Origin: Nitrospirota bacterium
GTDB taxonomy: Bacteria; Nitrospirota; UBA9217
Assembly (NCBI GenBank): GCA_021783455.1
Contig: JAJXTW010000007.1
Span: forward strand, 1 to 32,024
DNA: 32,024 nucleotides
Direction of reading: 5' to 3'
Shown: one piece after another, positions 1,050 to 22,294 of the stretch
Layout of the letters: every line of letters begins with the position of its first letter
How positions within the stretch are numbered: position 1 is the first letter of the stretch
The notes under the pieces: generated by a model
What the model saw: the letters and a program-made list of their open reading frames with translations, nothing else
The model's database searches: none
What the model was told of the DNA's origin: nothing
Program-made: the position numbers and the translations under genes

Positions 1050-1118
1050 GGGGCCAGGGTCCCGTAGCAAGGGTCCAGGAATCTAAAACCTGGACCCCGG
1101 ACCCCGGACCCCGGACCC
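1050..1118. repeat. Intergenic element A: inverted array of 7-nt units
   Basis: The left arm is four in-phase heptamers, GGGGCCA, GGGTCCC, GTAGCAA and GGGTCCA (1050-1077). A 13-nt loop follows (1078-1090). The right arm is four heptamers, TGGACCC then CGGACCC three times (1091-1118). The core, 1071-1079 with 1089-1097, is a perfect 9-bp inverted repeat. The element fills the rodA/radical-SAM gap and ends just before the TGAGG that can serve as Shine-Dalgarno for the next gene. It is related unit by unit to the element at 12598-12667. Confidence 0.85.
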
Positions 1119-1128
1119 TGAGGTAATC

Positions 1129-3648
1129 ATGCTCGAAGATTTTCTTCCGCTTGTCGCAAAACCTGCCAGGTACATCAACAGCGAGGTCAACGCCGTACAC
1201 AAAGATCTCGGGCAGGTGAAGACCACGGTCTGCCTTTTCTTTCCGGACACCTACGAAGTCGGCATGTCGCACCTCGGCCTGCGGATCCTCTACCACATCC
1301 TGAACAGCAGGAGCGATGCGGCATGCGAGCGGGTGTTTTCCCCCTGGACGGACTATGAAGCACGGCTGCGCGCATCGGGCAGGCCGCTCACGAGCCTCGA
1401 GTCCAATCTTCCGCTCGCAGCGTTCGACTTGATCGGCATTACGCTCCAGTACGAGCTGTCCTATTCCAATATTCTGGCAGGCCTCGAACTGGCCCGGATA
1501 CCCCTGCGCGCGGCGGACCGGACCGCGGAGCACCCCGTCATTATTGCAGGCGGCCCCTGCGCCGTGAACCCCGAGCCGCTTTCGGACTTCATCGATGTTT
1601 TTTTCATCGGTGAGGCCGAGGAGGCCATGCATGAACTCGTTGAACTCCGGCAGGCCCACGTTGACAAGGCGTCGTTCCTCGAAGCGCTTGCAGCCCGCGA
1701 CGGCTACTATGTCCCCGCGCTCGGCAAAAGGACGGTCCGCAGGCGTTTCATGAAGGACCTTGAGTCCGCGCCCTTTCCGGACAAGCCGCTTTTGCCGCTC
1801 ATGAAACCGATCCACGATCGCGTGACCGTGGAGGTCGCGCGCGGCTGCATTCGCGGGTGCCGCTTCTGCCAGGCGGGAATTATTTACCGCCCCTACCGCG
1901 AGCGGAGCGCCGGGCGGGTCAAAGACCTTCTCCGCACATCGCTCCGTTGTACCGGCTATGATGAATTGTCGCTGGCATCGCTCAGCTCCGGCGATTACTC
2001 GGATATTCAGCCCCTCATGCAAGACCTTGTTACGACCTATCGCGACGACAGGATTTCCATTTCCCTTCCTTCCCTTCGCATCGGGACGCTCACGCCCGGG
2101 ATGATCCGGGCAGTTGCCGGCGTCCGCAAGTCCGGCTTCACCCTGGCGCCGGAAGCGGGCACGGAACGGCTTCGCCGCGTGATCAACAAACCGGTTTCCG
2201 ACCAGGACCTTCTGAATGCGGCAACGACGATTTTCTCCAGCGGCTGGAGCGTCCTGAAACTCTACTTCATGATCGGGCTGCCCACCGAGACGAACGAGGA
2301 CTTGGACGGCATTATCAGGATCGCCCAGGACCTCCTCATGGCGGGCAAGCGGTCTTCACGGCGTCCAATACAGATCAACATCACCGTCTCCACGTTCGTG
2401 CCGAAGCCCCATACGCCCTTCCAGTGGTTCGGCCAGGCAACACGGGAAGAGATCAGGGCAAAACAAACTTACCTGGAAAAAGGCCTTCGAAAAAAAGGAA
2501 TATCGCTCAAGCCTCATCATGCGGAAACGAGCCTGCTTGAGGGCGCCTTTGCGCGCGGAGACAGGAGCGTCGGCAGGGTCATCGAAGAGGCAGTGCGGCT
2601 CGGCTGCCGCTTCGACGGCTGGTCCGAGTGTTTTGATTTTGCGAAATGGCAACAGGCGTTCCAAGCCTGCGGCATGGATCCGGCCGCGCTTGCGTCCCGC
2701 ACCTACGCTCTCGACGAAGCCCTGCCCTGGGACCACATCCAGAGCGGCGTCACGAAAAAATTTCTGCAAAGTGAGTACGAACGGGCCCAGGCCGCGGAGA
2801 GCACGGAAAATTGCCGCGAGAAGTGCGAGCGCTGCGGCATCGGCTGCACGGACGGCGGCACAGCACTGCTCGGAAAACCCGCCCTGCCCAAAGACAAGGA
2901 GTGCGCCCCGGAGCCAAGGGCAAGCAATGTGCGTGATTCGTTCGAAAGGGGGGAAAAGGCCCCTTCGCGCCAAAACCTCGATGTACGGTACAGAATGAAA
3001 TTCACAAAAATTGGGCGGTTGCGATTTTTATCCCACTTGGACCTGATGGCCCTTTTTCAACGGGCGGCCGCACGGGCAGGAATTCCCATCGCTTTTTCCC
3101 AGGGCTTTAACCCCCATCCGAAGATCTCCTTTGGCCCCGCCCTTTCCGTAGGCATAGAAAGCGTGTCGGAATATCTGGACATGGAAACGAGCACCTACGT
3201 CGAGCTCCAGGAGCTGACAAAAGCCCTGAACAGCGCGCTTCCGGAAGGCGTCAAAATTCTCGAATCCCGGGTGGTCTCTCCGAAAGCGCCTTCCCTTTCG
3301 GGAAGCATCAGTCGGTATACCTACGAGGTTGCCGTACCAAAGCGCTCTTTCCATGACGTGGCCGAACTGGCAGCCTCCTTCTTGTCCCGCGAAGCAGTCA
3401 TCGTAGCAAAAGACGGAAAGCAGAAGGACATCAGGCCCTGCATCGAGTCGATCAATGTTAACGCAAAGAACAACGCCGTGGAAATCGAAATAGTCCTGGT
3501 TGATCACGGCCAGCAAAAGCCCCGGATCCAGGACGTGCTGGGTCAGCTCTTTGCGGTCACTGCGGAAGAGTCTCACCTGTTCGGCGTACGGCGTACGGGA
3601 TTGTACTGCGAAGAAAAAGGCCAATGGGTGCCTCCGATTTCGCTCTAA
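1129..3648 (+). CDS. Radical SAM protein (TIGR03960-type) fused to DUF2344 radical-SAM-linked domain
   Basis: This 839-residue protein has a B12-binding-like N-terminal region (about 1-200) followed by a radical SAM barrel. The cluster motif is C240-x3-C244-x2-C247 (GCIRGCRFC), which should bind a [4Fe-4S] cluster for S-adenosylmethionine cleavage. A cysteine-rich linker, CREKCERCGIGC, lies near residues 562-573. From about residue 618 comes a DUF2344 domain (TIGR03936, 'radical SAM-linked protein'), with FLSHLDLMALFQRAAARAGI and SQGFNPHPKISFGPALSVG. The two families are usually neighbouring genes or a fusion, commonly beside rng, as here. The substrate is unknown; an RNA or ribosome role is only suggested by the rng neighbourhood. 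The ATG start at 1129 is preceded by TGAGGT. Confidence 0.9.
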   Translation: MLEDFLPLVAKPARYINSEVNAVHKDLGQVKTTVCLFFPDTYEVGMSHLGLRILYHILNSRSDAACERVFSPWTDYEARLRASGRPLTSLESNLPLAAFDLIGITLQYELSYSNILAGLELARIPLRAADRTAEHPVIIAGGPCAVNPEPLSDFIDVFFIGEAEEAMHELVELRQAHVDKASFLEALAARDGYYVPALGKRTVRRRFMKDLESAPFPDKPLLPLMKPIHDRVTVEVARGCIRGCRFCQAGIIYRPYRERSAGRVKDLLRTSLRCTGYDELSLASLSSGDYSDIQPLMQDLVTTYRDDRISISLPSLRIGTLTPGMIRAVAGVRKSGFTLAPEAGTERLRRVINKPVSDQDLLNAATTIFSSGWSVLKLYFMIGLPTETNEDLDGIIRIAQDLLMAGKRSSRRPIQINITVSTFVPKPHTPFQWFGQATREEIRAKQTYLEKGLRKKGISLKPHHAETSLLEGAFARGDRSVGRVIEEAVRLGCRFDGWSECFDFAKWQQAFQACGMDPAALASRTYALDEALPWDHIQSGVTKKFLQSEYERAQAAESTENCREKCERCGIGCTDGGTALLGKPALPKDKECAPEPRASNVRDSFERGEKAPSRQNLDVRYRMKFTKIGRLRFLSHLDLMALFQRAAARAGIPIAFSQGFNPHPKISFGPALSVGIESVSEYLDMETSTYVELQELTKALNSALPEGVKILESRVVSPKAPSLSGSISRYTYEVAVPKRSFHDVAELAASFLSREAVIVAKDGKQKDIRPCIESINVNAKNNAVEIEIVLVDHGQQKPRIQDVLGQLFAVTAEESHLFGVRRTGLYCEEKGQWVPPISL

Positions 3649-3805
3649 AGCTCCTGCTGCAGAAATGCCCCCGTTCATGCCGCACGGGAGCGCAAAGCGT
3701 ATCCGCCTCGCGGGAGCTTATATTCCAGTCCCACTGTTGCAATGGCGCTTCTCATTTTTTTAGCAGCCAGTAGCATATCAGCGTCCTTCCTGCTACAATT
3801 AAAAA

Positions 3806-3918
3806 CAAGTTCAGTGCCGGGATAAGATACCAGCCCTATGCGGCTGTGAGCGCTCCCTCATTGCCGAAAGTCCGGCATGGTGCAGGGCAATGAAAGCCGG
3901 GGAAAGGAGAGTTTTTTT
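3806..3918 (+). other. Possible structured leader or small RNA upstream of rng
   Basis: The 338-nt gap 3649-3986 holds no convincing ORF. Within it I see a hairpin CAGCC/GGCTG (3831-3835 with 3842-3846). A 7-bp inverted repeat TCATTGC/GCAATGA (3858-3864 with 3887-3893) follows. Two competing pairings overlap it: GCCG/CGGC (3863-3866 with 3873-3876) and CCGGC/GCCGG (3872-3876 with 3896-3900). Seven T residues follow at 3912-3918. A TACAAT box at 3794-3799 could start transcription near 3806, though no good -35 box is visible. It matches no riboswitch I recognise. A folded RNA is inferred from base pairing only. Confidence 0.3.
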
Positions 3919-3922
3919 ACCC

Positions 3923-3950
3923 TTGTATTACCTTCCCCACTTATTATAAA
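3923..3950 (+). promoter_or_regulatory. Sigma-70-like promoter for rng
   Basis: TTGTAT at 3923-3928 and TATAAA at 3945-3950 are separated by 16 nt. This would start transcription near 3957, about 30 nt before the rng ATG, leaving room only for the AAGGAG ribosome binding site. Confidence 0.5.
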
Positions 3951-3986
3951 ATAGCCCCGCTCACCACCAATGCTTAAGGAGAACGC

Positions 3987-5492
3987 ATGCCATCTGAGAT
4001 CATCGTAAACGCAGGCCGCGAGGAAACCCGCGTGGCCCTTCTTGAGAACAGCCTCGTCACGGAAATCTACATCGACCGGAAAAAGGACCGCGGCATCGCC
4101 GGCAACGTCTACAAAGGCAGGATCATGAAGGTCCTGCCCGGCATGCAGGCTGCGTTCATCGACATCGGCCTGGAGAAATCCGCGTTCCTCTACGTCGGCG
4201 ATGTCTTTGACAGCTCGTCGGAATACACGCCCCTGATGGAAGACGAGGGCCTGGAGCTCGAGGTCGAAACGAAACGGAAACGCGCCCACGCAAACCAGAT
4301 CGAAGACCTGTTGCAGGAAGGGCAGGAAATCCTCGTGCAGGTATCGAAAGAGCCGATCAGCACCAAGGGCGCGCGGGTCACGACCTACATCAGCATTCCC
4401 GGCCGCTACCTCGTCATGATGCCCGGCGTGAACCATATCGGCGTCTCGCGCAGGATCGAGAACGGCGAGGAGCGGAAGCGGCTCCGCGAGATCGTGAGCC
4501 GCTTGCGGAAGCCGAATACGGGCTACATCATCAGGACCGCCAGCCAGGGCAGGAGCGAAGAGGATTTCGTGGCCGACATAGAGTTTTTGAGCAGGCTCTG
4601 GGACAACGTCCAGAAGAAAAAAGAGCGGGCTTCGGCGCCGGCGCTCCTGCACAACGAACTCGACCTGGTCTTCCGCGTGATCCGCGACGTGTTCAGCCGA
4701 GACGTGGACAGGATGGTCATCGACTCTCCCGACGAGTACCAGCGCGTCAGGGAATTCGTCGATTCCTATATTCCGCCGCTTTCCCGGCGGGTGAAGCCCT
4801 ACGACGGCGACGACCCCATCTTCGACCACTACGGCGTGGAGATCGAGATCTCCCGCGCCCTGGGCAGAAAGGTCTGGCTCAAGTCGGGCGGCTACATCAT
4901 CGTGGACCAGACCGAGGCCCTCGCGGCGATCGACGTGAACACCGGCAGGTACGTGGGCAAGCGCACGCTCGAGGACACGATCTTAAAGACGAACCTCGAG
5001 GCCGTGCGGGAGATCGCCTACCAGCTCCGTCTCCGGAACATGGGCGGCATCGTCGTTCTGGATTTCATCGACATGGAGCGTGAGGACAACCGCAGGAAAG
5101 TCTATTCAGCGCTCCAGGAAGCGCTGGCGAACGACAAGGCCAAGACCACGATCTCGCACATCTCGCCCATCGGTCTTATCGAGATGACCAGGAAACGCAT
5201 CCGGGAGAGTCTCGGCCGCACGCTCTGCGAGCCCTGCCCCTACTGCGACGGCCGCGGCTACATCAAGTCGAGCCGCACCATGTGTTACGAGGTCCTGCGC
5301 GAACTCAGGAGGGCCTTCTCGAGCGCAGACGAAAAGAAGGCCCTCGTCACCGTCAATTCCGTCGTGGCCGATATGCTGTATGACGAGGAGCGCCAGGGCG
5401 TGGAAGAACTGGAAAAGGAATTTCAGAAGAAGATCGTGATCAAGGCAGACCCGAATCTGCACCAGGAGCAGTATGAAGTGGTGATGGTGTAA
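3987..5492 (+). CDS. rng: Ribonuclease G (RNase E/G family)
   Basis: RNase G is a 5'-end-dependent endoribonuclease that matures 16S rRNA and degrades mRNA in the cytoplasm. The 501-residue length fits RNase G, lacking the long C-terminal scaffold of RNase E. An S1 RNA-binding domain spans roughly residues 38-125 (GNVYKGRIMKVLPGMQAAFIDIG). The catalytic metal-binding aspartates are in AIDVNTG (D316) and VVLDFIDME (D359). The zinc-link motif CPxC is at C417-P-Y-C420, with an additional C414. The start is ATG with AAGGAG 7 nt upstream. The final 31 codons are duplicated in degenerate form at 7182-7274. In many genomes rplU-rpmA follow rng, but not here. Confidence 0.96.
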   Translation: MPSEIIVNAGREETRVALLENSLVTEIYIDRKKDRGIAGNVYKGRIMKVLPGMQAAFIDIGLEKSAFLYVGDVFDSSSEYTPLMEDEGLELEVETKRKRAHANQIEDLLQEGQEILVQVSKEPISTKGARVTTYISIPGRYLVMMPGVNHIGVSRRIENGEERKRLREIVSRLRKPNTGYIIRTASQGRSEEDFVADIEFLSRLWDNVQKKKERASAPALLHNELDLVFRVIRDVFSRDVDRMVIDSPDEYQRVREFVDSYIPPLSRRVKPYDGDDPIFDHYGVEIEISRALGRKVWLKSGGYIIVDQTEALAAIDVNTGRYVGKRTLEDTILKTNLEAVREIAYQLRLRNMGGIVVLDFIDMEREDNRRKVYSALQEALANDKAKTTISHISPIGLIEMTRKRIRESLGRTLCEPCPYCDGRGYIKSSRTMCYEVLRELRRAFSSADEKKALVTVNSVVADMLYDEERQGVEELEKEFQKKIVIKADPNLHQEQYEVVMV

Positions 5493-5584
5493 GGCAGTTT
5501 GATGTGCAACTGACTAAAAACCGGTCGAATTCCGGGATCAGGCCAAGGACCCGGAGTGTTGCCCCAAAATTCGGGAGTTGTACA

Positions 5585-7102
5585 ATGATTAATCTGCTTT
5601 CGGAACTATTTTCCCGCCAGTCGAAATCCGCAGGCGGGAGTGGGCCGTCCCGGGCGCTGGAGGGAGATTCGGCCGTGCTCGCCGCATCGGCCGCAGGAGG
5701 CGCATCAGAATCACGGGGCCTGTCCTGGGTCAAGAGCGCCTGCACCCGCTTCTTCTCGGGCCTTGACCCGATTGTGCCGATGATACTCATGGCGGCGGTG
5801 GTAGGCTTTATCAGTTCCCTTTCCGTTGAATTGTTTCGCAAAGGAATGTATACGATCGTCAGTCTCTATTCCACCCATGAACATCTCGTGGCTGCTGCGC
5901 GCGATTTACCGTTGTGGATGCGGGTATTAGTACCCACGCTCGGAGGTCTTGGCGGAGGGTTGATAATGTGGGCGGGCCACCGCTGGATCAAGCGCCCGCA
6001 CGGACCGGAATATATGGAGGCGGTGCGTATCGGCGACGGCATCCTGCCTCTCGGACCGAATCTCGTTCGGACCGTTGCATCGCTGGTCGGGGTCAGCGGA
6101 GGCATTACCATCGGCCGCGAAGGAACGATGATCCAGTTCGCCTCCGTGACATCGTCTATTCTTGGACGGCTGGCCCGCGTGGACGTCGCCCACCGCCGGC
6201 TGATCGTCGCCTGCGGCGCTGCAGCGGGTTTTGCCGGTGCTTATCACGCGCCGATCGCGGGCACTCTCTTCGTTGCGGAAATCATCCTCGGGGGGCTGGC
6301 GCTGCGGGAGATTACCGCCGTGCTGGTTGCGGCGGTCATCGGCGAGCTGACCACGCAGGCGCTGTTCGCCACCGGTCCGCTCTACATTTCACACGTCGTA
6401 CCGGCAGTGGGATTTTCTGATTTATTCGATGCATCACTCCTAGGGTTAATGGCCGGCCTGCTCGGCCCCGCGTTCCTGTGGCTGCTCGCCACCGCAAACC
6501 ACAGGTACCAGGCCCTCATTGGTTTTTTGCCGCTGCGCATGGGCGTGGCCGGACTAGGCATCGGGCTGTTGTCGACATTGCGCCCGGAGGTCTGGGGCAA
6601 CGGGTACAGCATTATTGAATCGTTTTTCGTTTCGCACTGGGCGTTGAGCGCGGTAGCGGCGGTGTTCGTGCTGCGGTTGATTGCCGTGACGTTTGCCAGC
6701 GCCGCGGGCATCCCCGGCGGCGTGCTCACCCCCACGTTGCTGCTGGGCGGGGCCATGGGATTGCTGGTAGGCCACACGATGCTGATACCGTCGGCCGACC
6801 ATTCGCAGACGCTGTGGATACTGGTCGGGATGGGCAGCTTGCTGGCGGCAACCACTCACGCACCGGCGATGTCCGCTATCATGGTCTTCGAGCTCACCCG
6901 TAACTACAACGTCGTCCTGGCAGCGATGCCTGCCTGCGTGATCGCATCGGTTATCGGGAGCCTGTTGCGGCATCGTTCCGTCTACGCCGAGGCCCTGGGC
7001 CTGGGCAGGGGCATGCACGCTACGCCTGCCCCTCAGCGCCAGGCATTTCCGAGCCGCAGCCCAAGTCCCGGCGATTCCCCTTCTGTTCGCGTTGACAAGT
7101 AG
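5585..7102 (+). CDS. ClcB-like voltage-gated chloride channel / Cl-/H+ antiporter
   Basis: This 505-residue polytopic membrane protein belongs to the ClC family, which moves Cl- across the inner membrane, usually coupled to H+. Visible motifs are GREGTMIQ with the gating glutamate at E179, AEIILGGLALREI in the proton-path region, and GIPGGVLTPTLLLG. The canonical GSGIPE filter loop is replaced by HGPEYMEAVRIGDG, a pattern I associate with the ClcB branch. There are no C-terminal CBS domains; the tail is a short Pro/Ser-rich segment. I chose ATG 5585 because GGGAG lies 7 nt upstream; the same frame also opens at GTG 5504 without a binding site. The gene lies between the true rng 3' end and a decayed second copy of it, so it probably arrived by recombination. 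Confidence 0.88.
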   Translation: MINLLSELFSRQSKSAGGSGPSRALEGDSAVLAASAAGGASESRGLSWVKSACTRFFSGLDPIVPMILMAAVVGFISSLSVELFRKGMYTIVSLYSTHEHLVAAARDLPLWMRVLVPTLGGLGGGLIMWAGHRWIKRPHGPEYMEAVRIGDGILPLGPNLVRTVASLVGVSGGITIGREGTMIQFASVTSSILGRLARVDVAHRRLIVACGAAAGFAGAYHAPIAGTLFVAEIILGGLALREITAVLVAAVIGELTTQALFATGPLYISHVVPAVGFSDLFDASLLGLMAGLLGPAFLWLLATANHRYQALIGFLPLRMGVAGLGIGLLSTLRPEVWGNGYSIIESFFVSHWALSAVAAVFVLRLIAVTFASAAGIPGGVLTPTLLLGGAMGLLVGHTMLIPSADHSQTLWILVGMGSLLAATTHAPAMSAIMVFELTRNYNVVLAAMPACVIASVIGSLLRHRSVYAEALGLGRGMHATPAPQRQAFPSRSPSPGDSPSVRVDK

Positions 7103-7175
7103 CCAGGGCACGGGCCCCAGTCCGGACCCACGGGCGATTGTTTTTAAATATGCTTTGCGCAAGCGACCCACATTG

Positions 7176-7274
7176 CAGCAGGTGGAAGAGCTGGAGAAGG
7201 AATTCCAGAAGAAGATCGTGATCAAGGCTGGCCCCAACCTGCACTAGGAGCAGTATGAGGTGGTGATGGTGTAA
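7176..7274 (+). pseudogene. Degenerate second copy of the rng 3' end
   Basis: Bases 7182-7274 align without gaps to 5400-5492, the last 31 codons of rng. I count 84 identities in 93 positions. Seven of the nine differences are synonymous (for example GAA/GAG, TTT/TTC, AAT/AAC). One changes Asp to Gly and one turns CAG into TAG. Similarity fades just upstream of 7176. The dominance of synonymous changes means most divergence arose while the sequence was still coding. The likely source is therefore a related rng allele or an old duplication rather than a recent copy. Confidence 0.93.
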
Positions 7275-7336
7275 GAGAGACGTCCAAAAGAAATTCCGCA
7301 GTTTCTATATGAGTCTGCGGCAAATGATGCAAAGAT

Positions 7337-7364
7337 GTCGGGGTTCGCCTGCACTTAACCCGAC
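7337..7364 (-). terminator. Weak hairpin downstream of the DUF4160-DUF2442 pair
   Basis: An inverted repeat pairs about 8 bp (GTCGGG-TT with AACCCGAC, one bulged G) around an 11-nt loop, some 20 nt past the minus-strand stop at 7384. No good T-run follows on the minus strand, so termination is only possible. A second perfect 6-bp stem, CCGCAG/CTGCGG, lies at 7296-7301 and 7315-7320. Confidence 0.25.
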
Positions 7365-7383
7365 CTGCTCTATGCATATTACA

Positions 7384-7653
7384 TTATTTGGTTTTTGCGG
7401 TTGACTTTGTCCTGTCGCCAATGCCTAACAAGAGACCTTCTACGCTGATATCTTCGTCCAGTTCATCCCAATGTATCCCTGTACCCCCGCCGCTCAGTTC
7501 ATATTGTTGAAGCTGTTTGCCCGTCGCATGCAGTAGCCGTGGGAAATAGGCCAAGGGAACTGAAAGTTGTCTTCCATCGGTGAGTTCCAGCCAAATATTC
7601 GCTTCATCAAACCAGACTCTTTTAGCCGCCGCCGTGACTGACAAAGTGATCAT
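7384..7653 (-). CDS. DUF2442 family protein
   Basis: This 89-residue protein has the DUF2442 pattern: a beta-rich start (VWFDEANIWLELTDGRQLSVPLAYFPRL) and the closing signature IHWDELDEDISVEGLLLG. I start at ATG 7653 because AAGGAGG lies 6 nt upstream (complement of 7660-7666). The frame also allows ATG 7680 without such a site. It overlaps the end of the DUF4160 gene by 32 nt, so the two are co-transcribed and probably translationally coupled. DUF2442 domains occur elsewhere fused to helix-turn-helix domains, consistent with an antitoxin-like or regulatory partner. That role is inference; no enzymatic residues are recognisable. Confidence 0.85.
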   Translation of the reverse strand: MITLSVTAAAKRVWFDEANIWLELTDGRQLSVPLAYFPRLLHATGKQLQQYELSGGGTGIHWDELDEDISVEGLLLGIGDRTKSTAKTK

Positions 7654-7879
7654 GCCAAGCCTCCTTAATCTTCGATTCATTTTCCTGTATGATATTTTCT
7701 ATTTCTTTTAATTCCGAGGGGCTCATTTCGTAAGCCTCAGCGAGAGATATCTGCGGCTCTATCCAAAATTTTGCCACTCGTGCTCCGTTTCTCACATGCA
7801 CGTGAACCGGCTCCAAGGGATTCCCTTCGTTTGAGAAAAAGAAAAGACGATAGCCTCTATATCTCGCAATTACCGGCAT
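7622..7879 (-). CDS. DUF4160 family protein, partner of DUF2442
   Basis: This 85-residue protein matches DUF4160: MPVIARYRGYRLFFFSNEG at the start, then the EPVHVHVRNG segment with two histidines and AKFWIEP. A helical tail follows (SPSELKEIENIIQENESKIKEAWHDHF). DUF4160 and DUF2442 genes are commonly adjacent and have been suspected of forming toxin-antitoxin-like modules. I cannot tell from sequence whether this one is toxic. It is the promoter-proximal gene of the pair, with a strong promoter about 30 nt upstream and no strong Shine-Dalgarno. The 5' leader is only about 20 nt. Confidence 0.85.
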   Translation of the reverse strand: MPVIARYRGYRLFFFSNEGNPLEPVHVHVRNGARVAKFWIEPQISLAEAYEMSPSELKEIENIIQENESKIKEAWHDHFVSHGGG

Positions 7880-7906
7880 CCGGGGTTCCCTCGTGCGCTT
7901 TGTAAA

Positions 7907-7935: not shown

Positions 7936-8019
7936 GACAAAATACGAGCAAAGGGAAAGTGCGGACGCGGAGACAAGTTCAATATTCACCCGATAGAACC
8001 GTTCGAGAACAGGCTCTGC

Positions 8020-8796: not shown

Positions 8797-8863
8797 AGTA
8801 ACTTAAGGAAGCCCATCGGCCGTCTAGCTGCACATACAATCGGGATGCTGTCGAGGAGGGTCG

Positions 8864-12597: not shown

Positions 12598-12667
12598 GGG
12601 TCAAGTAGCACGGGTCATGGGTCCTGGTCAGATCAAACCTTGACCCTTGCCCCCTGACCCTTGACCC
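12598..12667. repeat. Intergenic element B: inverted array of 7-nt units
   Basis: The left arm is the heptamers GGGTCAA, GTAGCAC, GGGTCAT and GGGTCCT (12598-12625). A 14-nt loop follows (12626-12639). The right arm is TTGACCC, TTGCCCC, CTGACCC and TTGACCC (12640-12667). Unit length, unit number, the odd GTAGCA unit and the GG-AAACC loop ends all match element A at 1050-1118. It begins 3 nt after the cyclophilin stop and ends just before the AAGGGAG of argG. Confidence 0.85.
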
Positions 12668-12683: not shown

Positions 12684-13895
12684 TTGTCGCAGAAGATAAA
12701 CAAGGTCGTGGTCGCCTATTCCGGCGGGCTCGATACGTCGGTCATCATCACCTGGCTCAGGGAAACCTACGGCTGCGAGGTGATCGCGTTCACCGCCGAC
12801 ATCGGCCAGGGCGAAGAACTCGAACCGCTCCGGGAAAAAGCCGTCAAGACCGGGGCGAGCAAGATCTACATCGACGACTTGCGCGAGGAGTTCGTTCAGG
12901 ACTTCGTATTCCCCATGCTGCGGACGAATGCGGTGTACGAAGGCCGCTACCTCCTCGGCACCTCGATCGCGCGGCCGCTGATCGCAAAGCGCCAGATCGA
13001 GATCGCGCAGAAGGAAGGCGCCGATGCCGTCTGCCACGGCGCGACAGGCAAGGGGAACGACCAGGTCCGCTTCGAGCTGACCTATTATGCGCTCAAGCCC
13101 GATGTCAAGATCGTCGCGCCCTGGCGCGAGTGGGACATGAAAGGCCGCGAGGAACTGATCGCCTACGCGGAGAAGCACAAGATCCCGGTGACGGCCACGA
13201 AGTCAAAGCCCTATTCCACGGACCGGAACCTGCTGCACATCAGCTACGAAGGCGGCATCCTGGAGGATCCGTGGAAGGAATCCACTTTGGACATGTACAC
13301 CATGGCCGTGCCCGTGGAAAAAGCCCCGGACAAGGCCGAGTATGTGGAAGTGGAATACCAGGCCGGAAATCCTGTTTCGATCAACGGCACGAAGCTGTCC
13401 CCTGCGGCCCTTCTTTCCGAGGCGAACCTCATTGCCGGCGGCCACGGTATCGGCAGGATCGACCTCGTCGAGAACCGCTATGTGGGCATGAAGTCCCGCG
13501 GTGTGTACGAGACGCCGGGCGGCACGCTGCTCCATGCGGCGCACCGGGCCGTGGAGTCCATCACCATGGACCGCGAAGCCATGCATCTCCGCGACAGCCT
13601 GGTTCCGCGCTATGCCGAGCTCGTGTACTACGGGTACTGGTTCGCGCCCGAGCGACTGATGCTGCAGGCCATGGTTGATGAGTCCCAGAAGAACGTCACG
13701 GGAACTGCGCGGGTGAAGCTCTACAAAGGAAACTGCGACACCGTGGGGCGCAGGTCGGCCGTTTCGCTCTACAACCCCGAACTCGCCACCTTTGAGGCGG
13801 ACCGCGTGTATAATCAGAAGGACGCCGAAGGGTTCATCCGCTTGAATGCGCTCCGGCTGAGGATAGGAAGCAAGGCGAAAGACCCGACACGGTGA
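12684..13895 (+). CDS. argG: Argininosuccinate synthase
   Basis: ArgG joins citrulline and aspartate with ATP to form argininosuccinate, the penultimate step of arginine synthesis. The 403-residue length is normal. The N-terminal PP-loop is [11 protein letters not shown] (S13-G-G-L-D17-T-S). Also present are [13 protein letters not shown] and the C-terminal [13 protein letters not shown]. The start is TTG at 12684, supported by AAGGGAG 7 nt upstream and by the family's usual N-terminus; no ATG fits. The last codons and the TGA stop lie inside element C (from 13886). The product feeds argH immediately downstream. Confidence 0.97.
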
Positions 13896-13963
13896 CGGGG
13901 AGAACCGGAGACGCGGCGTAAATGCCCTTGTCCCCCCTCTCCGCGTCACCCTGTCTCCGCGTC
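13886..13963. repeat. Intergenic element C: inverted array of 8-nt units
   Basis: The left arm is four octamers, GACACGGT, GACGGGGA, GAACCGGA and GACGCGGC (13886-13917). A 14-nt loop follows (13918-13931). The right arm reads, on the complement, GACGCGGA, GACAGGGT, GACGCGGA and GAGGGGGG (13963 back to 13932). The first units overlap the end of argG, and the repeat supplies its TGA stop. It ends 15 nt before argH. Units share a GACRCGGA consensus with element D. Confidence 0.8.
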
Positions 13964-15406: not shown

Positions 15407-16518
15407 AGATCTGCGCCCGGTGGTTTCGCGCGGCCTGTTTGGCGCTGGTGCCCGCAGCACTTGCCGCCTGTGCATTGAAAACCGACCCGCTCATACCTCC
15501 CAGCCCCCGGCCCGAGCCGGTAAAAAATATCAAGGCCGAGACGCGCGACGCTGCCGCGTTTTTGTCGTGGCCGATCCCGGAGAAAAACGTGGAGGGCGTG
15601 AGCCTGAAGCCCGCCGATATCCTGCTGTTCCGGGTCTACCGGGCCGAATTCGGACGGGACCGCAGGAAGACGCGGTACAAGCCGTATACTGAGATCCGAG
15701 TGGCCAGCCCGGCGCCGGCGGTCATTCGAAACAACGTCGTCTTCTGGACCGACCATCGGGTAACCTACGGCTATTTGTACGAATACCGGATCAGGGCAGT
15801 AAGCGTGCGCAACGGAGTAAGCGCCTGGTCCGACGAAGTACGGGTCATGCCGCTGCTCAGTCCCGCAGTCCCCGCGGGGGTCGCAGCACAGGGCGGAGAT
15901 GGTTATAATCTGATCACCTGGCAGACCGTCACCACCTGGGTGGACGGCAGCCGCTACAGCGGCTTTGTCGGCTATAACGTCTACCGGGGAACGGAGCAAG
16001 GCTGGCCCGACGAGATGCCGCTCAACAAGGAGCCGCTCACGACGACTGCCTATAAAGATACAACGGCTTCGAACAACAGGACCTATTATTATGCGGTCCG
16101 TTCCGTGAACAGTCCGGCCCCTCCCTGGAAGGAGAGCCTGGATTCCGCCGAGGTTTCCGCAACTCCGCGCGACCTGACGCCTCCGGAGAGGCCCACGGGA
16201 CTCACGGTCGTTCCGGGGGTGGGCAGAGTGTTCCTCACCTGGAACGAAAATAAGGAGCGGGACCTCGCGGGCTATCACGTGTACCGCTCGCTGCGGCACG
16301 GCAAAAGCTATGAACGGTTGACGGACAAGCTGCTGGCCCGGACGACGTTCTCCGATGAAACGGTTAGGAGCGGAAGAACATATTACTACGTGGTCACCGC
16401 CGTGGACCAGTCGGGAAACGAGAGCGACTATTCTTTAGAGCGGAAGGTTTTTGTCGAGAAGCTTGATGCAGGAAAATTTACCACGGAGAAGCCGAAAAGC
16501 GGACAACATGGCCGGTGA
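15403..16518 (+). CDS. Fibronectin type III repeat lipoprotein
   Basis: The 371-residue protein has a lipoprotein signal with lipobox L20-A-A-C23. Alanine follows the cysteine, so an outer-membrane rather than inner-membrane location is expected. A proline-rich spacer (PLIPPSPRPEPV) follows, then three fibronectin type III modules at about 38-145, 148-258 and 260-362. They show the usual YEYRIRAVS, TYYYAVRSVN and TYYYVVTAVD strands, and HVYRS/NVYRG turns. No catalytic domain is seen. The ATG overlaps the argH stop and the stop abuts lysA. A lipoprotein gene between argH and lysA is common in related gene orders, but its function is unknown; a structural or binding role is inferred. Confidence 0.88.
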   Translation: MKICARWFRAACLALVPAALAACALKTDPLIPPSPRPEPVKNIKAETRDAAAFLSWPIPEKNVEGVSLKPADILLFRVYRAEFGRDRRKTRYKPYTEIRVASPAPAVIRNNVVFWTDHRVTYGYLYEYRIRAVSVRNGVSAWSDEVRVMPLLSPAVPAGVAAQGGDGYNLITWQTVTTWVDGSRYSGFVGYNVYRGTEQGWPDEMPLNKEPLTTTAYKDTTASNNRTYYYAVRSVNSPAPPWKESLDSAEVSATPRDLTPPERPTGLTVVPGVGRVFLTWNENKERDLAGYHVYRSLRHGKSYERLTDKLLARTTFSDETVRSGRTYYYVVTAVDQSGNESDYSLERKVFVEKLDAGKFTTEKPKSGQHGR

Positions 16519-16568
16519 GCGTTCCCTGGTTTTTGACCGGTTGTCCGGAGTCGGGTGCGGGACGATCT

Positions 16569-17834
16569 ATGCATGATTTCCAGTATAAGAACGGCGAACT
16601 TTACTGCGAGGGGGTGCCGGTAAAGACCGTGGCCCAGCGGATCGGTACGCCTTTTTATCTTTACAGCAGCAATACGCTCTCGATGCATTTCCGGGCATTC
16701 GACACCGCCTTCTCCGGCGTCCCGCGCGTCATCTGCTACGCGCTCAAGTCAAACTCGAACAGCGCCATTCTCCGGCTGCTGGGTCGGGAGGGCGCGGGCG
16801 CGGACATCGTGTCGGGCGGCGAGCTGTTTCGCGCGCTCCGCGCGGGCATCGATCCGAAAAAGATCGTCTACGCAGGCGTCGGCAAGCGCAGGGACGAGAT
16901 CGAATATGCGCTCAAAATCGGCATCCTCATGTTCAACGTCGAATCGGGAGATGAGCTTCGCGCGCTCGACGACGCGGCCGGTGAAATGCGGGCAACGGCG
17001 CGGATCGCCCTCCGGGTGAACCCGAACATCGACCCCAAAACGCATGCCTACATTTCCACCGGATTGAAGGAGAACAAGTTCGGCATCCCGATCGAACAGG
17101 CGCTCGAGTATTACCAGATGGCCAGGTCCCTCTCCCACGTGGAGATCGTCGGCGTGCACCACCACATCGGCTCGCAGATCACCGAGGTCCAGCCCTTCGT
17201 CGATGCGCTCGAAAAAGTCGTCGCCTTCATCAAGGAGCTCAAGTCCGCAGGCATGAATATCAAATATATCGATATCGGCGGGGGGCTCGGCATTACGTAC
17301 AAGGACGAAACACCGCCGCTCCCCCGGGAGCTGGCAACGGCGATCCAGCCGCTCCTCAAGGATTGCGGCTGCACCCTGGTGCTCGAACCGGGCAGGGCCA
17401 TTGTCGGGAACGCCGGCATCCTGGTGACAAGCGTCCTCTACCACAAGGAAACGGGAGAAAAAAAGTTTCTGATCGTTGACGCAGGCATGAACGACCTTAT
17501 CCGCCCAAGCCTCTACGATGCGTACCATGAAATCAAGCCAATCGTCGAGCCCGCAGCGCAGGACCCGCATGATGTCGTCGACGTGGTCGGCCCGATCTGC
17601 GAGTCCGGCGATTTCCTGGCCAAAGAGCGGGACATGCCGGCGGTCAAGCGCGGGGACCTCCTGGCCGTTATGAGCGGAGGGGCCTATGGCTTCTCCATGT
17701 CGTCAAACTATAATTCCCGGCCGCGGGTTGCCGAAGTCATGGTCCGGGGAAACGAATATTTCGTCATTCGCGAACGCGAAACCTACAACGATCTCATCAA
17801 GGGCGAGAAAATTCCGCGGTGGCTGGCGGGGTAA
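16569..17834 (+). CDS. lysA: Diaminopimelate decarboxylase
   Basis: LysA decarboxylates meso-diaminopimelate to lysine using pyridoxal phosphate. From ATG 16569 it is 421 residues. The PLP-binding lysine is K60 in CYALKSNSN. Phosphate and substrate blocks follow: VGVHHHIGSQI, DIGGGLGI, LEPGRAIVGNAG and GPICESGDFLAK with the active-site cysteine. I prefer ATG 16569 because MHDFQYKNGELYCEGVPV matches the family's usual N-terminus. The frame also opens at GTG 16515, overlapping the lipoprotein stop, which would add 18 unusual residues. A single-arm 7-nt repeat lies between it and dapF. Confidence 0.96.
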   Translation: MHDFQYKNGELYCEGVPVKTVAQRIGTPFYLYSSNTLSMHFRAFDTAFSGVPRVICYALKSNSNSAILRLLGREGAGADIVSGGELFRALRAGIDPKKIVYAGVGKRRDEIEYALKIGILMFNVESGDELRALDDAAGEMRATARIALRVNPNIDPKTHAYISTGLKENKFGIPIEQALEYYQMARSLSHVEIVGVHHHIGSQITEVQPFVDALEKVVAFIKELKSAGMNIKYIDIGGGLGITYKDETPPLPRELATAIQPLLKDCGCTLVLEPGRAIVGNAGILVTSVLYHKETGEKKFLIVDAGMNDLIRPSLYDAYHEIKPIVEPAAQDPHDVVDVVGPICESGDFLAKERDMPAVKRGDLLAVMSGGAYGFSMSSNYNSRPRVAEVMVRGNEYFVIRERETYNDLIKGEKIPRWLAG

Positions 17835-17839
17835 AAGGC

Positions 17840-17860
17840 ATTTCGGATTTCAGACTGCGG
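17840..17860. repeat. Half-element G: three 7-nt units between lysA and dapF
   Basis: Three heptamers, ATTTCGG, ATTTCAG and ACTGCGG, run in tandem in the 59-nt gap between the lysA stop and the dapF start. No inverted second arm is visible. It may be the remnant of an element of the same design as A-E. Confidence 0.45.
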
Positions 17861-17893
17861 ATAGACATTCTGAACGAGGTACCTGGTCGGACC

Positions 17894-18706
17894 ATGAAAA
17901 AAATACCTTTTTATAAAATGCAGGGGAGCGGCAACGACTTCATCCTGATCGACAACCGCAGGAACATCCTGAAAGGGAAGAGCCTGAAAGACCTTGCCAC
18001 GACGCTCTGCCACCGGCATTATTCGGTGGGCGCCGATGGGCTGATCGTTATCGTTCCTTCGAAGAAGGTCGATTTTAAGTGGCGGTTTTTCAATGCAGAC
18101 GGAAGCGAGGCCGGGATGTGCGGCAATGGTTCACGGTGCGCTGCGCGTTTCGCCTTCATCAAAAAAATTGCCAAAAAGGACATAGCCTTTGAGACGCTTG
18201 CCGGGATCATCCATGCCCAGGTAAAGCCCCGCTCGGTCAAGGTCCAGTTGACCGGCGCCGCGGGCCTCCGCATGAACATCGCCGTACCGCTCGACAGCGG
18301 GACCCGGATGGGCCATTACATCGACACCGGCGTGCCGCACCTGGTCTACCTGTCCAAGGACATCGATAACGAAGACGTTGACCGCGTAGGGAGAACGACG
18401 CGGTATCATGAGCTTTTCAAACCCGCGGGCACGAATGTGAACTTCATCCAGATCGACAGTAAGCGCAAGCTTCGCATCAGGACCTACGAGCGCGGGGTGG
18501 AAGGCGAGACCCTGGCCTGCGGCACGGGCTCGGTGGCCGGCGCTCTGATTGCCGGCGCGCTCGGCGCTGTTTTTTCGCCTGTCGAGGTCCACACCCGGGG
18601 CGGAGAGACGCTGACGGTTTCGTTTGAGCGAAGTGCGGAGGCATTCAGCGGGATCTACCTCGAAGGGAATGCCGAGGTGATCTGCGAGGGAACGCTGTAT
18701 ATTTAG
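17894..18706 (+). CDS. dapF: Diaminopimelate epimerase
   Basis: DapF interconverts LL- and meso-diaminopimelate by a two-cysteine, cofactor-free mechanism. Both cysteines are present: C76 in GMCGNGSRC and C209 in LACGTGSVAGAL. The protein starts KKIPFYKMQGSGNDFILIDN, the family's standard N-terminus, so ATG 17894 is chosen (270 residues). The frame extends 25 codons upstream into repeat-like sequence without a start signal. It is essential here, because the DapL route yields the LL isomer while LysA and peptidoglycan need meso. Confidence 0.96.
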   Translation: MKKIPFYKMQGSGNDFILIDNRRNILKGKSLKDLATTLCHRHYSVGADGLIVIVPSKKVDFKWRFFNADGSEAGMCGNGSRCAARFAFIKKIAKKDIAFETLAGIIHAQVKPRSVKVQLTGAAGLRMNIAVPLDSGTRMGHYIDTGVPHLVYLSKDIDNEDVDRVGRTTRYHELFKPAGTNVNFIQIDSKRKLRIRTYERGVEGETLACGTGSVAGALIAGALGAVFSPVEVHTRGGETLTVSFERSAEAFSGIYLEGNAEVICEGTLYI

Positions 18707-18746
18707 TTTCGAGTTTTGTGGAGAAAGATGTCTTAAGGAGGCTGTT

Positions 18747-19619
18747 ATGTTTAAAGGTTCAATGGTTGCGATTGTAACGCCGTTCAAGAACGGGAAGATT
18801 GACGAAAAAGCCCTCGGCGATCTTATAGAGTTTCATATCAAGAACGGTACGGACGTGATCGTTCCCTGCGGCACGACCGGAGAATCCGCCACACTGTCTC
18901 ATGAGGAGCATCACCGCGTCGTCGAATTTACGGTGAAAACGGTCAACAAGCGGGTCCCGGTCCTTGCCGGCGCAGGCTCGAACTCGACCTCGGAAACGCT
19001 GGAGCTCACGAAGTTCGCGCAAAAGGCGGGCGCCAACGGCGTCCTGCTCATCACCCCCTATTACAACAAGCCCACGCAGGAAGGGCTCTACCGGCATTTT
19101 GCGCACGTGGCCGATTCGACAGACATGCCGATCGTCCTGTACAATGTCCCGGGACGAACAAGCGTCAACATGCTCCCTTCGACGGTCGCGCGCCTTCGGG
19201 AAAAGAAGAACATTGTCGGCATCAAGGAAGCAACCGGCGACATGAAGCAGGTAAGCGAAGTCCTGCGGCTGTGCGGCAAAGACTTCGACGTGCTTTCCGG
19301 CGACGATTTCACCACGTTCCCGATGCTTGCTCTGGGCGGCGTCGGCGCGATCTCGGTAACGGCGAACATCGCGCCTGCGGATTGTGCGGCCATGTTCGAC
19401 GCATTCTTTACGGGCAAAACCGAGGAGGCCAAGAGGCTGCACTATAAGCTGGAGCCGCTTCACGGCCCCATGTTCATCGAGACCAATCCGATCCCGGTCA
19501 AGACCGCGCTTGCGCTCATGGGCAAGATCAGCGAGGAGTTCCGTCTGCCGCTTTGCCCTATGGCGGACGCAAACAAGGACAAGCTCAAAAAGGCGCTCAA
19601 GGAGTACGGATTGATATAA
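18747..19619 (+). CDS. dapA: 4-hydroxy-tetrahydrodipicolinate synthase
   Basis: DapA condenses pyruvate with aspartate semialdehyde, the committed step to diaminopimelate. The 290-residue protein has the Schiff-base lysine K160 in GIKEATGD, catalytic Y132 in YNVPGRTSVN, and the GTTGESATL loop near residue 45. The start is ATG 18747 with TAAGGAGG upstream, one of the best ribosome binding sites in the window. Repeat element D lies between it and dapB. Confidence 0.97.
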   Translation: MFKGSMVAIVTPFKNGKIDEKALGDLIEFHIKNGTDVIVPCGTTGESATLSHEEHHRVVEFTVKTVNKRVPVLAGAGSNSTSETLELTKFAQKAGANGVLLITPYYNKPTQEGLYRHFAHVADSTDMPIVLYNVPGRTSVNMLPSTVARLREKKNIVGIKEATGDMKQVSEVLRLCGKDFDVLSGDDFTTFPMLALGGVGAISVTANIAPADCAAMFDAFFTGKTEEAKRLHYKLEPLHGPMFIETNPIPVKTALALMGKISEEFRLPLCPMADANKDKLKKALKEYGLI

Positions 19620-19632
19620 CCGATAGCCATTT

Positions 19633-19693
19633 GCCACGGAGACACCGAGAGGACGCAGAGAATTGATTCTCCGTGTCTCTGCGCCTCTGTGGC
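19633..19693. repeat. Intergenic element D: inverted array of 8-nt units
   Basis: The left arm contains CACGGAGA and CACCGAGA in tandem, then CGCAGAGA after a 3-nt insertion (19635-19661). The right arm is TCTCCGTG, TCTCTGCG and CCTCTGTG (19668-19691). The termini GCCAC and GTGGC pair. It fills the dapA/dapB gap and ends 16 nt before the dapB ATG. Read in another register, its units match the GACRCGGA consensus of element C. Confidence 0.85.
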
Positions 19694-19709
19694 TGAATCG
19701 AGGTTGCAT

Positions 19710-20513
19710 ATGATCAAAGCAGTCGTAACCGGCGCAGCAGGCCGCATGGGATCACGCATCATCAACGTGCTCTCCGCATCGGAGGGCATCGCACTGGGCG
19801 GGGCCGTGGAAAGAAAGGGACATTCCCTCGTGGGCCAGGACGCGGGCGGTCCCGCCGGCGTCGCGGCCCTGGGGATCAAGATCACGGACGACCTTTCTTC
19901 GGCGCTCAAATCCGGTGACGTCCTCATCGACTTCACGTTCCCCGAGGCAAGTCTGGAACACTTAAAGGCCTGCGCCGAACTTGGCAGGCCGGCCGTCATC
20001 GGGTCAACGGGCTTTACGAAGGAACAGCTCGCCCGGGCCGCCGATTATGTCCGTGCGATCCCCTGCGTCCTTTCGCCGAATATGAGCGTCGGCGTGAATG
20101 TCTGCTTCAAGGCGCTCGCCGATATCGCGAAGATCCTGGGGAGCGATTTCGACGTGGAGATCGTCGAGTCGCACCATCGGATGAAAAAAGATGCGCCGTC
20201 GGGCACCGCCGTACGAATGGGAGAGGTGGTGGCACGCGCCCTGGGCCGCGACTATCGCCAGGTCGCCAATTACCACCGCGAGGGCATCACGGGGGAGCGG
20301 ACAAAGGAAGAGATCGGCATGCAGACCATCAGGGGCGGCGATATTGTGGGCGAGCATACGGTCTACTTCATCGGCATGGGCGAACGGATCGAGCTTACTC
20401 ATCGCGCCCACACACGAGACATGTTCGCCCGCGGGGCCGTGCGGGCCGCCAAGTGGGTCGTGGGCAGGAAACCCGGCCTCTACGACATGCAGGACGTGCT
20501 GGGATTGAAATAG
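19710..20513 (+). CDS. dapB: 4-hydroxy-tetrahydrodipicolinate reductase
   Basis: DapB reduces the DapA product with NAD(P)H to tetrahydrodipicolinate. From ATG 19710 it has 267 residues. The dinucleotide-binding loop is VTGAAGRMGSRI at the N-terminus. The substrate motif is HHRMKKDAPSGTA (H155, H156 and the following lysines). The domain-closing segment GERTKEEIGMQTIRGGDIVGEH follows. The ATG is preceded by GAGG. The frame can be read seven codons further upstream into element D, which I discount. The acyl-pathway genes dapD, dapC and dapE are not seen; dapL replaces them. Confidence 0.96.
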   Translation: MIKAVVTGAAGRMGSRIINVLSASEGIALGGAVERKGHSLVGQDAGGPAGVAALGIKITDDLSSALKSGDVLIDFTFPEASLEHLKACAELGRPAVIGSTGFTKEQLARAADYVRAIPCVLSPNMSVGVNVCFKALADIAKILGSDFDVEIVESHHRMKKDAPSGTAVRMGEVVARALGRDYRQVANYHREGITGERTKEEIGMQTIRGGDIVGEHTVYFIGMGERIELTHRAHTRDMFARGAVRAAKWVVGRKPGLYDMQDVLGLK

Positions 20514-20564
20514 GAATCATACGAGTTTCCTCACTCGGATATTACTTTACAAAGGGAGTCTACA

Positions 20565-21338
20565 ATGAAAAAAGTATTCACTATCACCATCATGCTTGCT
20601 CTTCTGTGCACTGCGTTCCTGGCATCGGGCGTCCATGCCTTTGCGCCGAAAAAAGGCGACAAGCCCTGCCTTGACTGCCACAAGCTCGACAAAAAGGACG
20701 CCGAGGTCATCGTAAAGAAGATTGTGCCCACGGGCACGGTCACGGATATAAAAGCGTCGCCGATCAAGGGCGTGTGGCAGATCGATGTGGAGGCCGGCGA
20801 AGGAAAGCACGGCTCGCTGTATCTGGATTTTTCGAAGAAGTTTCTCGTGGCCGGCCAGATCGTTCCTGTTGATCAGCTCGGGAAACAGCCCCCGGCGCGG
20901 AAAGTCGACCTTTCCAAGATCCCCACGGAGAATGCGATCGTAGTCGGGTCCAAGACCGCTGCGAAGAAGGTCATTGTGTTCAGCGATCCCGATTGCCCCT
21001 ATTGCCGTGAGCTCCACAAGATCATCAAGCAGATCGTCGCAAAGCGGCCCGACATTGCCTTTGAAATTATTCTGAATCCGCTTCCCATGCACAAGGAGGA
21101 CGCATTTAAGAAGGCCCAGGCGATCCAGTGTTCGAAGTCGACGGAGATGCTTGACGATGCTTTCTCCGGGAAGACGGTGCCGGAGCCGACCTGTCCTCCT
21201 GACCAGATAGAGAAGAACAGGGAACTTGCGGCAAAGCTCGAATTCAACGGCACGCCGACCCTCGTCCGTGACGACGGGACAGTGCTCTCCGGCTATCTTC
21301 CGGAAGAAAAACTTCTGGAGTGGATCGACAAGAAATAA
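20565..21338 (+). CDS. Exported DsbC-like thioredoxin-fold protein with N-terminal CxxCH
   Basis: The 257-residue protein starts with a Sec signal peptide (MKKVFTITIMLALLCTAFLASGVHA). A DsbC/DsbG-like layout follows: a small N-terminal region (about 40-110) and a thioredoxin-fold domain. The redox motif is CPYC (C144-P-Y-C147) within VIVFSDPDCPYCREL, and a cis-proline lies in NGTPTLV. Two more cysteines, C189 and C210, match the second disulfide of such proteins. Immediately after the signal peptide is C35-L-D-C38-H39, which has the form of a c-type haem attachment site. It should act in the periplasm on disulfides or haem/cytochrome maturation. It lies inside the lysine gene cluster, with GGGAG before the ATG and a small CGAGT/ACTCG hairpin at 20522-20537. 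Confidence 0.85.
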   Translation: MKKVFTITIMLALLCTAFLASGVHAFAPKKGDKPCLDCHKLDKKDAEVIVKKIVPTGTVTDIKASPIKGVWQIDVEAGEGKHGSLYLDFSKKFLVAGQIVPVDQLGKQPPARKVDLSKIPTENAIVVGSKTAAKKVIVFSDPDCPYCRELHKIIKQIVAKRPDIAFEIILNPLPMHKEDAFKKAQAIQCSKSTEMLDDAFSGKTVPEPTCPPDQIEKNRELAAKLEFNGTPTLVRDDGTVLSGYLPEEKLLEWIDKK

Positions 21339-21342
21339 TATA

Positions 21343-21399
21343 AGGACTGGGGGAAACATGCTTTGGACGGAGAGACGTTTTTGCTCCCCGCTCAGTCCT
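21343..21399 (+). terminator. Hairpin between the DsbC-like and FAH-family genes
   Basis: AGGACTG (21343-21349) pairs with CAGTCCT (21393-21399), with a GGGG/CCCC pairing also possible just inside. The stem begins 4 nt after the DsbC-like stop. No T-run follows, so processing or mRNA stabilisation is as likely as termination. Confidence 0.3.
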
Positions 21400-21442
21400 C
21401 ATCCCTCAGGCCTGACTTACTCTTGTGATCCCGGAGGGCTGG

Positions 21443-22195
21443 ATGAAACTCGTTCGGTTTCAGGTTGGCGGAAGGGAATCGCACGGAGTTTTGAGCGGCA
21501 ACGAGGTCCGGGAACTGGAAGGGGACTTCCTCGGCTCCTTCGACGCTGTGAAGAGGTCCCACGCTCTCGACAGCATTAAACTTCTGGCGCCGTGCATTCC
21601 CACGAAGATCGTCGCTGTGGGACTCAATTATCGTGATCACGCTCTTGAGTTGGGTTTTCCGATTCCGGAAAACCCGATTATTTTTCTCAAGCCGCCCACC
21701 AGCATCATCGGACCCGGCGATACAATCGTCGTACCGGACATGAGCAAACGGGTCGACTATGAAGCTGAGCTCGGGGTTGTGATCAAGGACCGGGTGCGAA
21801 ACGTTTCTGCTGAACAAGCGTCGGGCCACATCCTCGGGTATACTTGTGCGAACGACGTTACCGCGCGGGATTTGCAGAAACAGGACGGCCAGTGGACCCG
21901 AGCGAAATCCTTTGATACGTTTTGCCCCGTGGGCCCCTGGATAGAGACCGACCTTGATCCCCGCAACCTTCTTGTCGAAACGTACCTCAACGGTGAGCGA
22001 AAGCAGTCCTCCCGGACGTCTCAGTTTATTTTTACGATTGATCACGTGGTAAGTTTCATTTCCCGGATCATGACCCTAAACCCCGGCGACCTCGTCATAA
22101 CCGGCACACCTTCCGGCATCGGCCCCATGAAGCCCGGCGATGAGATCGAGGTCCGGATCGAGGGTATTGGCAGTTTAAAAAATTCAGCAGCGTAA
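21443..22195 (+). CDS. Fumarylacetoacetate hydrolase family protein
   Basis: This 250-residue protein belongs to the FAH superfamily (COG0179), which hydrolyses or decarboxylates beta-diketo or 2-oxo acids with a divalent metal. Visible motifs are VGLNYRDHALELG, DYEAELGVVI with metal-ligand acidic residues, CANDVTARDLQ, KSFDTFCPVGPW, and the C-terminal PGDLVITGTPSGIG. The substrate cannot be read from sequence; oxaloacetate decarboxylase or acylpyruvase activity is known for relatives. I chose ATG 21443, which follows GGAGGG by 4-5 nt; a GTG at 21425 is in frame. Its place between dapB and dapL has no obvious metabolic reason. Confidence 0.9.
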   Translation: MKLVRFQVGGRESHGVLSGNEVRELEGDFLGSFDAVKRSHALDSIKLLAPCIPTKIVAVGLNYRDHALELGFPIPENPIIFLKPPTSIIGPGDTIVVPDMSKRVDYEAELGVVIKDRVRNVSAEQASGHILGYTCANDVTARDLQKQDGQWTRAKSFDTFCPVGPWIETDLDPRNLLVETYLNGERKQSSRTSQFIFTIDHVVSFISRIMTLNPGDLVITGTPSGIGPMKPGDEIEVRIEGIGSLKNSAA

Positions 22196-22226
22196 TTTTG
22201 TGATCTCATAAAGGGTCTGATTTTGC

Positions 22227-22294
22227 CGCAGAAAAACGGAGAAATACACTTTGCAAGAGTAAGGATTTTCTCTGCGCCCTTTGCGTTCTTTGCG
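22227..22294. repeat. Intergenic element E: inverted array of 9-nt units
   Basis: The right arm is three tandem nonamers, TTCTCTGCG, CCCTTTGCG and TTCTTTGCG (22268-22294). The left arm has the inverted-sense units CGCAGAAAA and ACGGAGAAA (22227-22244), then a degenerate stretch and loop. It lies in the 172-nt gap between the FAH-family gene and dapL; I see nothing else in that gap except the dapL ribosome binding site. Confidence 0.75.

Follow-up and report, generated by a model that had tools for sequence, protein, structure and literature searches.

Intergenic arrays of very short tandem units arranged as inverted pairs are already known from Xanthomonas (PMC4692102) and, according to the main text of PMC2700814, from Geobacter metallireducens. 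In Xanthomonas, the unit is the G-quadruplex-forming heptamer GGGAATC; its arrays lie mostly between aligned genes and near the upstream open reading frame, avoid divergent regions, vary in length and sequence between relatives and form 70–75 inverted pairs per genome (PMC4692102). The main text on G. metallireducens describes repeat classes 1–4 and GGACCGG elements as inverted pairs of tandem 7–8-nucleotide (nt) units (GTTGCTYN, TCTCCGTS[Y], MTYCTGA), with 5-nt units in class 4, and interprets them as sites of an IHF/HU-type global regulator (PMC2700814). The Beggiatoaceae carry intergenic TAACTGA heptamers of patchy phylogenetic distribution, a single unit that is almost never inverted and is found at start codons (PMC4679880). 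Other relevant systems are the repetitive extragenic palindromic (REP) sequences and REPINs with their REP-associated tyrosine transposases (RAYTs), short palindromes found mainly downstream of genes in co-directional or convergent pairs (PMC3733652, PMC3116915), and the miniature inverted-repeat transposable elements (MITEs). Here we analyze five elements, named A to E, in a window of 32,024 nt that is one whole contig (JAJXTW010000007.1) of a Nitrospirota metagenome-assembled genome (MAG; G000, 2.8 Mb in 302 contigs). The class to which they belong shares with the Xanthomonas and Geobacter repeats inverted tandem units of 7–8 nt in intergenic positions, and also includes 9- and 10-nt units. 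In contrast to the one unit and one length per Xanthomonas genome, many units of 7–10 nt are present here. Two of them, CACGGAGA and CAGGAGT, we read as the units of Geobacter classes 2 and 3 as given in the main text of that paper.

The five elements belong to a class that occurs genome-wide, is built of 7–10-nt units from a shared vocabulary, resides mainly at co-directional junctions with a purine-rich 5′ arm and a pyrimidine-rich 3′ arm, and turns over without conservation of pairing. Arrays are swapped for arrays of other units at the same junction, even between genomes that are about 95% identical. Such replacement at orthologous junctions distinguishes the Nitrospirota elements from the Xanthomonas heptamers; the main text on G. 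metallireducens reports no comparison of orthologous junctions, and a search of an open-access library revealed no earlier account of units being exchanged at such junctions in close relatives. In comparisons with the two relatives G001 and G002, whose flanks are 95.5% and 93.8% identical to those of the own genome, identity fell below 80% in 15 of 25 comparisons of element-bearing co-directional junctions vs 4 of 22 comparisons of other junctions (p=0.007 by Fisher's test and p=0.06 by the Mann-Whitney test). Replacement is most obvious at L081:1644-1748, where the same flanks enclose units AATTACG in the own genome, CTTCTGA in G001, CAGGAGT in G002 and AATTGGA in G005. At L044:15276, G001 retains the loop and one arm but has the other arm rewritten, and at L044:18535 two contigs of G002 carry different elements, with 8-nt and 10-nt units. 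These contigs, L192 (G002:C309) with the 10-nt and L204/L195 (G002:C195) with the 8-nt units at the same junction, probably represent a strain polymorphism inside the bin.

Turnover also affects the junctions of the window. The rodA–radical SAM gene pair that harbors element A is held by eleven relatives, six of which have arrays that pass the thresholds of stem score S≥12 and period score ≥6 (S counts +1 for a Watson-Crick pair, −1 for a mismatch and −2 for a gap). The other five comprise three with weaker arrays of like design, a masked one and L062, which lacks an array. The units at this junction differ (GACTATC/GACTTTC, GTCTCTC, CCTGTACCCTGAACC, CTCAATTA and others), and the cyclophilin–argG, argG–argH and dapA–dapB junctions likewise contain phased inverted arrays with differing units across genera. 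Element A still holds in its left arm a relic unit, GTAGCAA, that is present twice as TTGCTAC in the right arms of L051 and L061, two loci that differ in unit number; unlike these, the right arm of A now consists of four CCGGACC units. Element B is the same element in G002 with one unit more, and element C has its middle rewritten there. At the cyclophilin–argG junction, L109 and L111 contain one arm only. Their one-arm TGCGGAG arrays are located immediately upstream of the start codon of argG, for which they may provide the Shine-Dalgarno sequence (GGAG). Three G005 junctions (L114, L214 and L215) carry a recurring palindrome family that is not phased, GAGCGAGCCGACCGTGTCGGCGT...CGGCAACACGGTTGCCTCGGTCC. 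Because hairpins at one junction often consist of quite different units in close relatives, they resemble repeat DNA with a rapid turnover more than a conserved RNA switch.

Direct reading of the sequence confirmed all five elements that the original prediction had listed as tandem-unit inverted repeats between a stop codon and the next start on the same strand, with units of 7, 7, 8, 8 and 9 nt; no strand is assigned to any of them. Element A (1050–1118) is a 7-nt inverted array between a rodA/ftsW-type gene and a radical SAM/DUF2344 gene (S=18, period 7), with a period score of 21 in the right arm and a weak left arm (6). Element B (12598–12667) extends from a cyclophilin gene to argG and is an inverted array of 7-nt units of the TTGACCC type (S=15, period 7; period scores 8 left and 15 right). 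Element C (13886–13963), from argG to argH, has inverted 8-nt units of the CTCCGCGT/CACCCTGT type (S=15, period 8; scores 7 and 7) and starts inside argG, overlapping its last 10 nt including the stop codon. Element D (19633–19693), from dapA to dapB, has inverted 8-nt units of the CACGGAGA/TCTCTGCG type (S=12–14, period 8; scores 6 left and 8–9 right). A GTG start of dapB at 19689 would place the end of the right arm of D inside the gene, and the ATG at 19710 is therefore the likelier start. Element E (22227–22294), from an FAA-hydrolase gene to an aminotransferase gene, has a clear array of three 9-nt CTTTGCGnn units in its right arm (CTCTGCGCC CTTTGCGTT CTTTGCG), a family with 81 matches genome-wide vs 9 with the reversed pattern. 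Its left arm is barely periodic and its hairpin reaches S=9 only, in a test where 308 of 562 shuffled windows reach S≥8. Thus, the inverted design holds for A–D and is weak in E, the unit lengths stand for the right arms and less so for the left ones, which are less regular, and the co-directional location is correct except that C covers the argG stop codon. Slipped pairing would be compatible with this design, and differences in unit number occur at the junctions of A and B. No run of T directly follows any of the five elements on inspection by eye, and intrinsic terminators were rejected on this ground.

Beyond the window, the own genome was sampled by stretches that amount to 678 kb (24%), with intergenic regions defined by a home-made gene caller and thresholds of our own choice. 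Among 562 intergenic windows from 427 kb, some of which overlap so that a few elements are counted twice, 38 pass S≥12 and period score ≥6 vs 1.0 in dinucleotide shuffles, 21 pass S≥12 and period score ≥8 vs none, and 19 pass S≥14 and period score ≥8 vs none. Phased inverted arrays are thus neither as frequent in shuffled sequence nor unique to the window, and the idea of one architecture with several unit lengths extends to the whole genome. The best period of 77 co-directional elements (S≥12, period score ≥7) from the own genome and two others of its family (G004 and G011) is 7 in 29, 8 in 28, 9 in nine, 10 in four and another value in seven. With S≥13 and period score ≥7, the own genome contains 35 phased elements in 57.2 kb of co-directional, one in 7.7 kb of convergent and two in 18.4 kb of divergent intergenic sequence. 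Pooling with G004 and G011 gives 70, two and two, respectively. Counted per base, this agrees with the co-directional location noticed at the outset; counted per region, and without the two other genomes, co-directional and divergent junctions do not differ significantly (p=0.2). In ~26 kb from six genomes that represent other families of the phylum, four co-directional cases turned up, about one-fourth the density seen in the own genome. At the median, elements begin no more than ~10 nt away from the upstream stop codon and leave ~25 nt to the start codon of the next gene. Among 78 paired elements, purines prevail in the 5′ arm of 70 and in the 3′ arm of 8. One-arm arrays, which resemble the Beggiatoaceae heptamers, equal or exceed paired ones in number (21 of each in the own genome at our thresholds, although some of those listed extend over both arms). 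Of 42 one-arm arrays with polarity, 34 have the purines on the sense strand vs 8 with the reverse. Phased matches inside genes have mostly periods of 6, 9 and 12, apparently a consequence of codon periodicity; a single genuine 8-nt array is present at L069:1688.

The position of the elements, after the stop of one gene and before the next gene of a co-directional pair, is reminiscent of REPs, and orthologous junctions often keep a hairpin despite a differing sequence. Both observations would fit a function of the hairpins in the RNA, namely insulation, stabilisation or processing of operon mRNAs with a maintained structure and an unconstrained sequence, in line with the shared role in mRNA processing that had been proposed. 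The pairing itself does not bear the signature of such a role. Stems read in the sense orientation contain 107 G.T vs 118 A.C mispairs (p=0.5), thus no G.U excess, whereas plain hairpins of the same regions show one (93 G.T vs 59 A.C, p=0.007), which indicates that the assay is able to see RNA selection. Eleven comparisons between homologous elements of close relatives yielded 18 one-sided stem changes and no compensatory ones; pairing was lost at 12 pairs and gained at two, a count biased towards loss as the structure was taken from one member. In addition, arrays are swapped as a whole, and hairpins are missing (L062 at the junction of A) or reduced to one arm (L109 and L111 at that of B). 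No Rfam family matched the window at gathering thresholds, and a known RNA family for the elements was rejected on this basis. Given that a G.U excess and compensatory changes are both missing, a conserved role in mRNA processing is not supported, and we consider selection for RNA hairpins an unlikely explanation of the class.

A stronger candidate, which we regard as possible though somewhat less probable than the local origin discussed below, is that MITE- or REP-like non-autonomous families insert as whole hairpins at co-directional junctions, succeed one another at preferred sites and move from taxon to taxon. One MITE-like case is evident in a relative at L059, a clean insertion of ~160 bp with 10-nt units and long imperfect inverted ends that has TCAT on both sides (a 4-bp duplication) and whose site is empty in the window. 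Another is a dispersed 185-bp repeat with 9-nt CGCAAAGnn arms and AACCCGGACAAGCCGGAACTAAAGGCG flanks, the copies of which are 93–99% alike and lie in part at contig ends (L009, L020, L021 (1389-1629), L007, L013 and L019). The shared vocabulary and the patchy phylum-wide occurrence of two unit families also fit mobility. Identical consensus units link different genomes in 38 pairs vs 2.2 after letter shuffling, and the same units, several families per genome, are dispersed over the genome. The 8-nt family CACRGAGN is found in 33 of 296 genomes of the phylum, among them 12 of the 14 genomes of the own family, the rest being scattered, and the 7-nt family TGCGGAR in 21 of the 296; outside the own family both co-occur in two genomes where ~0.7 are expected, numbers too small to speak for a genome-level propensity. 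Very many CACAGAGG 8-nt arrays occur in G027 (genus g13, family f6), with 24 and 49 matches to a three-unit pattern, more than in the own family.

Against such mobility, the majority of elements lack near-identical copies within the sampled part of the own genome, unlike the high-copy palindromes of REPs and REPINs, which also lack tandem units inside their arms. For 13 elements from G000, G001 and G002, mostly picked where relatives differ, searches of these three genomes returned the element itself and otherwise partial matches or ≤84% identity over most of the length, the sole longer near-identical match being the retained arm of L044:15276. Duplications and clean empty sites were not seen for the 7- and 8-nt elements A–D; replacement leaves the boundaries unchanged, with neither an old element nor a duplication in sight for 7- and 8-nt units, and changes in unit number and the rewriting of one arm are local events. 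Nor was a linked transposase found. RAYT-type (PF01797) genes are present in all genomes of the own family (f1), but those sampled are flanked by GGGTCAGGTC- or GGGGACGTTG-type ends instead of arrays, and some array-bearing genomes outside the family (G020 and G036) have none; mobilisation by a RAYT/REP system was therefore rejected. The flanks of these genes (L252, L253, L257, L268 and others) form inverted ends GGGTCAGGTCT...AGACCTGACCC or GGGGACGTTG...CAACGTCCCC, often with a short 9–11-nt tandem repeat just outside (AGAACCTATAGAACCTATAGGGTCA; GCGCATATAAGCGCATATAAGCGCATAAAAGGGTCA). Plasmid-borne spread was likewise discarded, as one 8-nt and one 9-nt element had no match in PLSDB.

Our favoured explanation, held tentatively and at a little under even confidence, is that A–E are members of a heterogeneous class of fold-back arrays that undergo birth, decay and fast replacement wherever the short stretch from a stop codon to the next Shine-Dalgarno region tolerates them, with birth usually by slippage and template switching. 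Replication slippage close to the stop codon would first give rise to tandem units on the sense strand, and template switching (fold-back copying) would then write an inverted copy downstream. Part of the arrays may be inserted ready-made as MITE-like elements, a route included because of L059 and the 185-bp repeat, and arrays would later decay neutrally. The RNA hairpin would largely be a side effect, and if it influenced the operon mRNA at all, it would do so incidentally and in an element-specific manner. Hairpins are known to arise by template switching (PMC8794818), and polymerase slippage has been linked to the excess of heptamers (discussed in PMC4692102). Slippage and fold-back birth are supported by the one-arm rewriting at L044:15276, the GTAGCAA relic in A, the sense-purine polarity of one-arm arrays and the missing donors; the explanation as a whole also agrees with the excess over shuffles, the location, the arm order, the swapped units and the absence of RNA-type changes in the stems. 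Several observations weigh on the other side. Slippage that is purely local would not predict a vocabulary shared across genera, a base-by-base reconstruction was obtained for no single template switch, and the rewritten arm at L044:15276 in G001 is an imperfect copy. Moreover, the one proven clean insertion favours transposition, at least for the 10-nt type, and donor copies could be hidden in the incomplete MAGs of the genus (74–91% complete), although near-identical 9-nt copies did assemble. Local slippage alone does not explain the vocabulary, and transposition alone explains neither the missing donors nor the one-arm rewriting. A common mode of formation is plausible.

Both difficulties would be met by a hypothetical enzyme or pathway that writes 7–10-nt arrays de novo into stop-proximal junctions from limited templates and in a defined orientation, e.g., a telomerase-like reverse transcriptase with a short template or a fold-back repair pathway. 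If true, this would explain a vocabulary without donors, one-arm arrays, arm polarity and rapid replacement, but we regard it as speculative and quite improbable. Ku would be dispensable for such writing, being absent from the array-rich G004 and G011, and templated insertion by Ku-dependent non-homologous end joining was rejected as a requirement since Ku is also absent from the array-rich G003 and G013. By analogy with the guess published for Geobacter, in the main text of PMC2700814, arrays might instead be binding sites of a nucleoid or regulatory protein such as IHF or HU, for which a tandem and inverted layout would be suitable. This is the most doubtful of the alternatives: one genome contains many unrelated units of four lengths, units are swapped at a single junction between close relatives, and the elements avoid divergent promoter regions.

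In all, hairpins at operon junctions can be replaced wholesale within a genus by hairpins of other units while gene order remains unchanged. The presence of a hairpin at a fixed junction across species is therefore not by itself evidence of selection on RNA structure. With many junctions, several unit lengths, close relatives and cases of gain and loss, these Nitrospirota genomes provide a natural system for the birth of inverted repeats by slippage, template switching and transposition.

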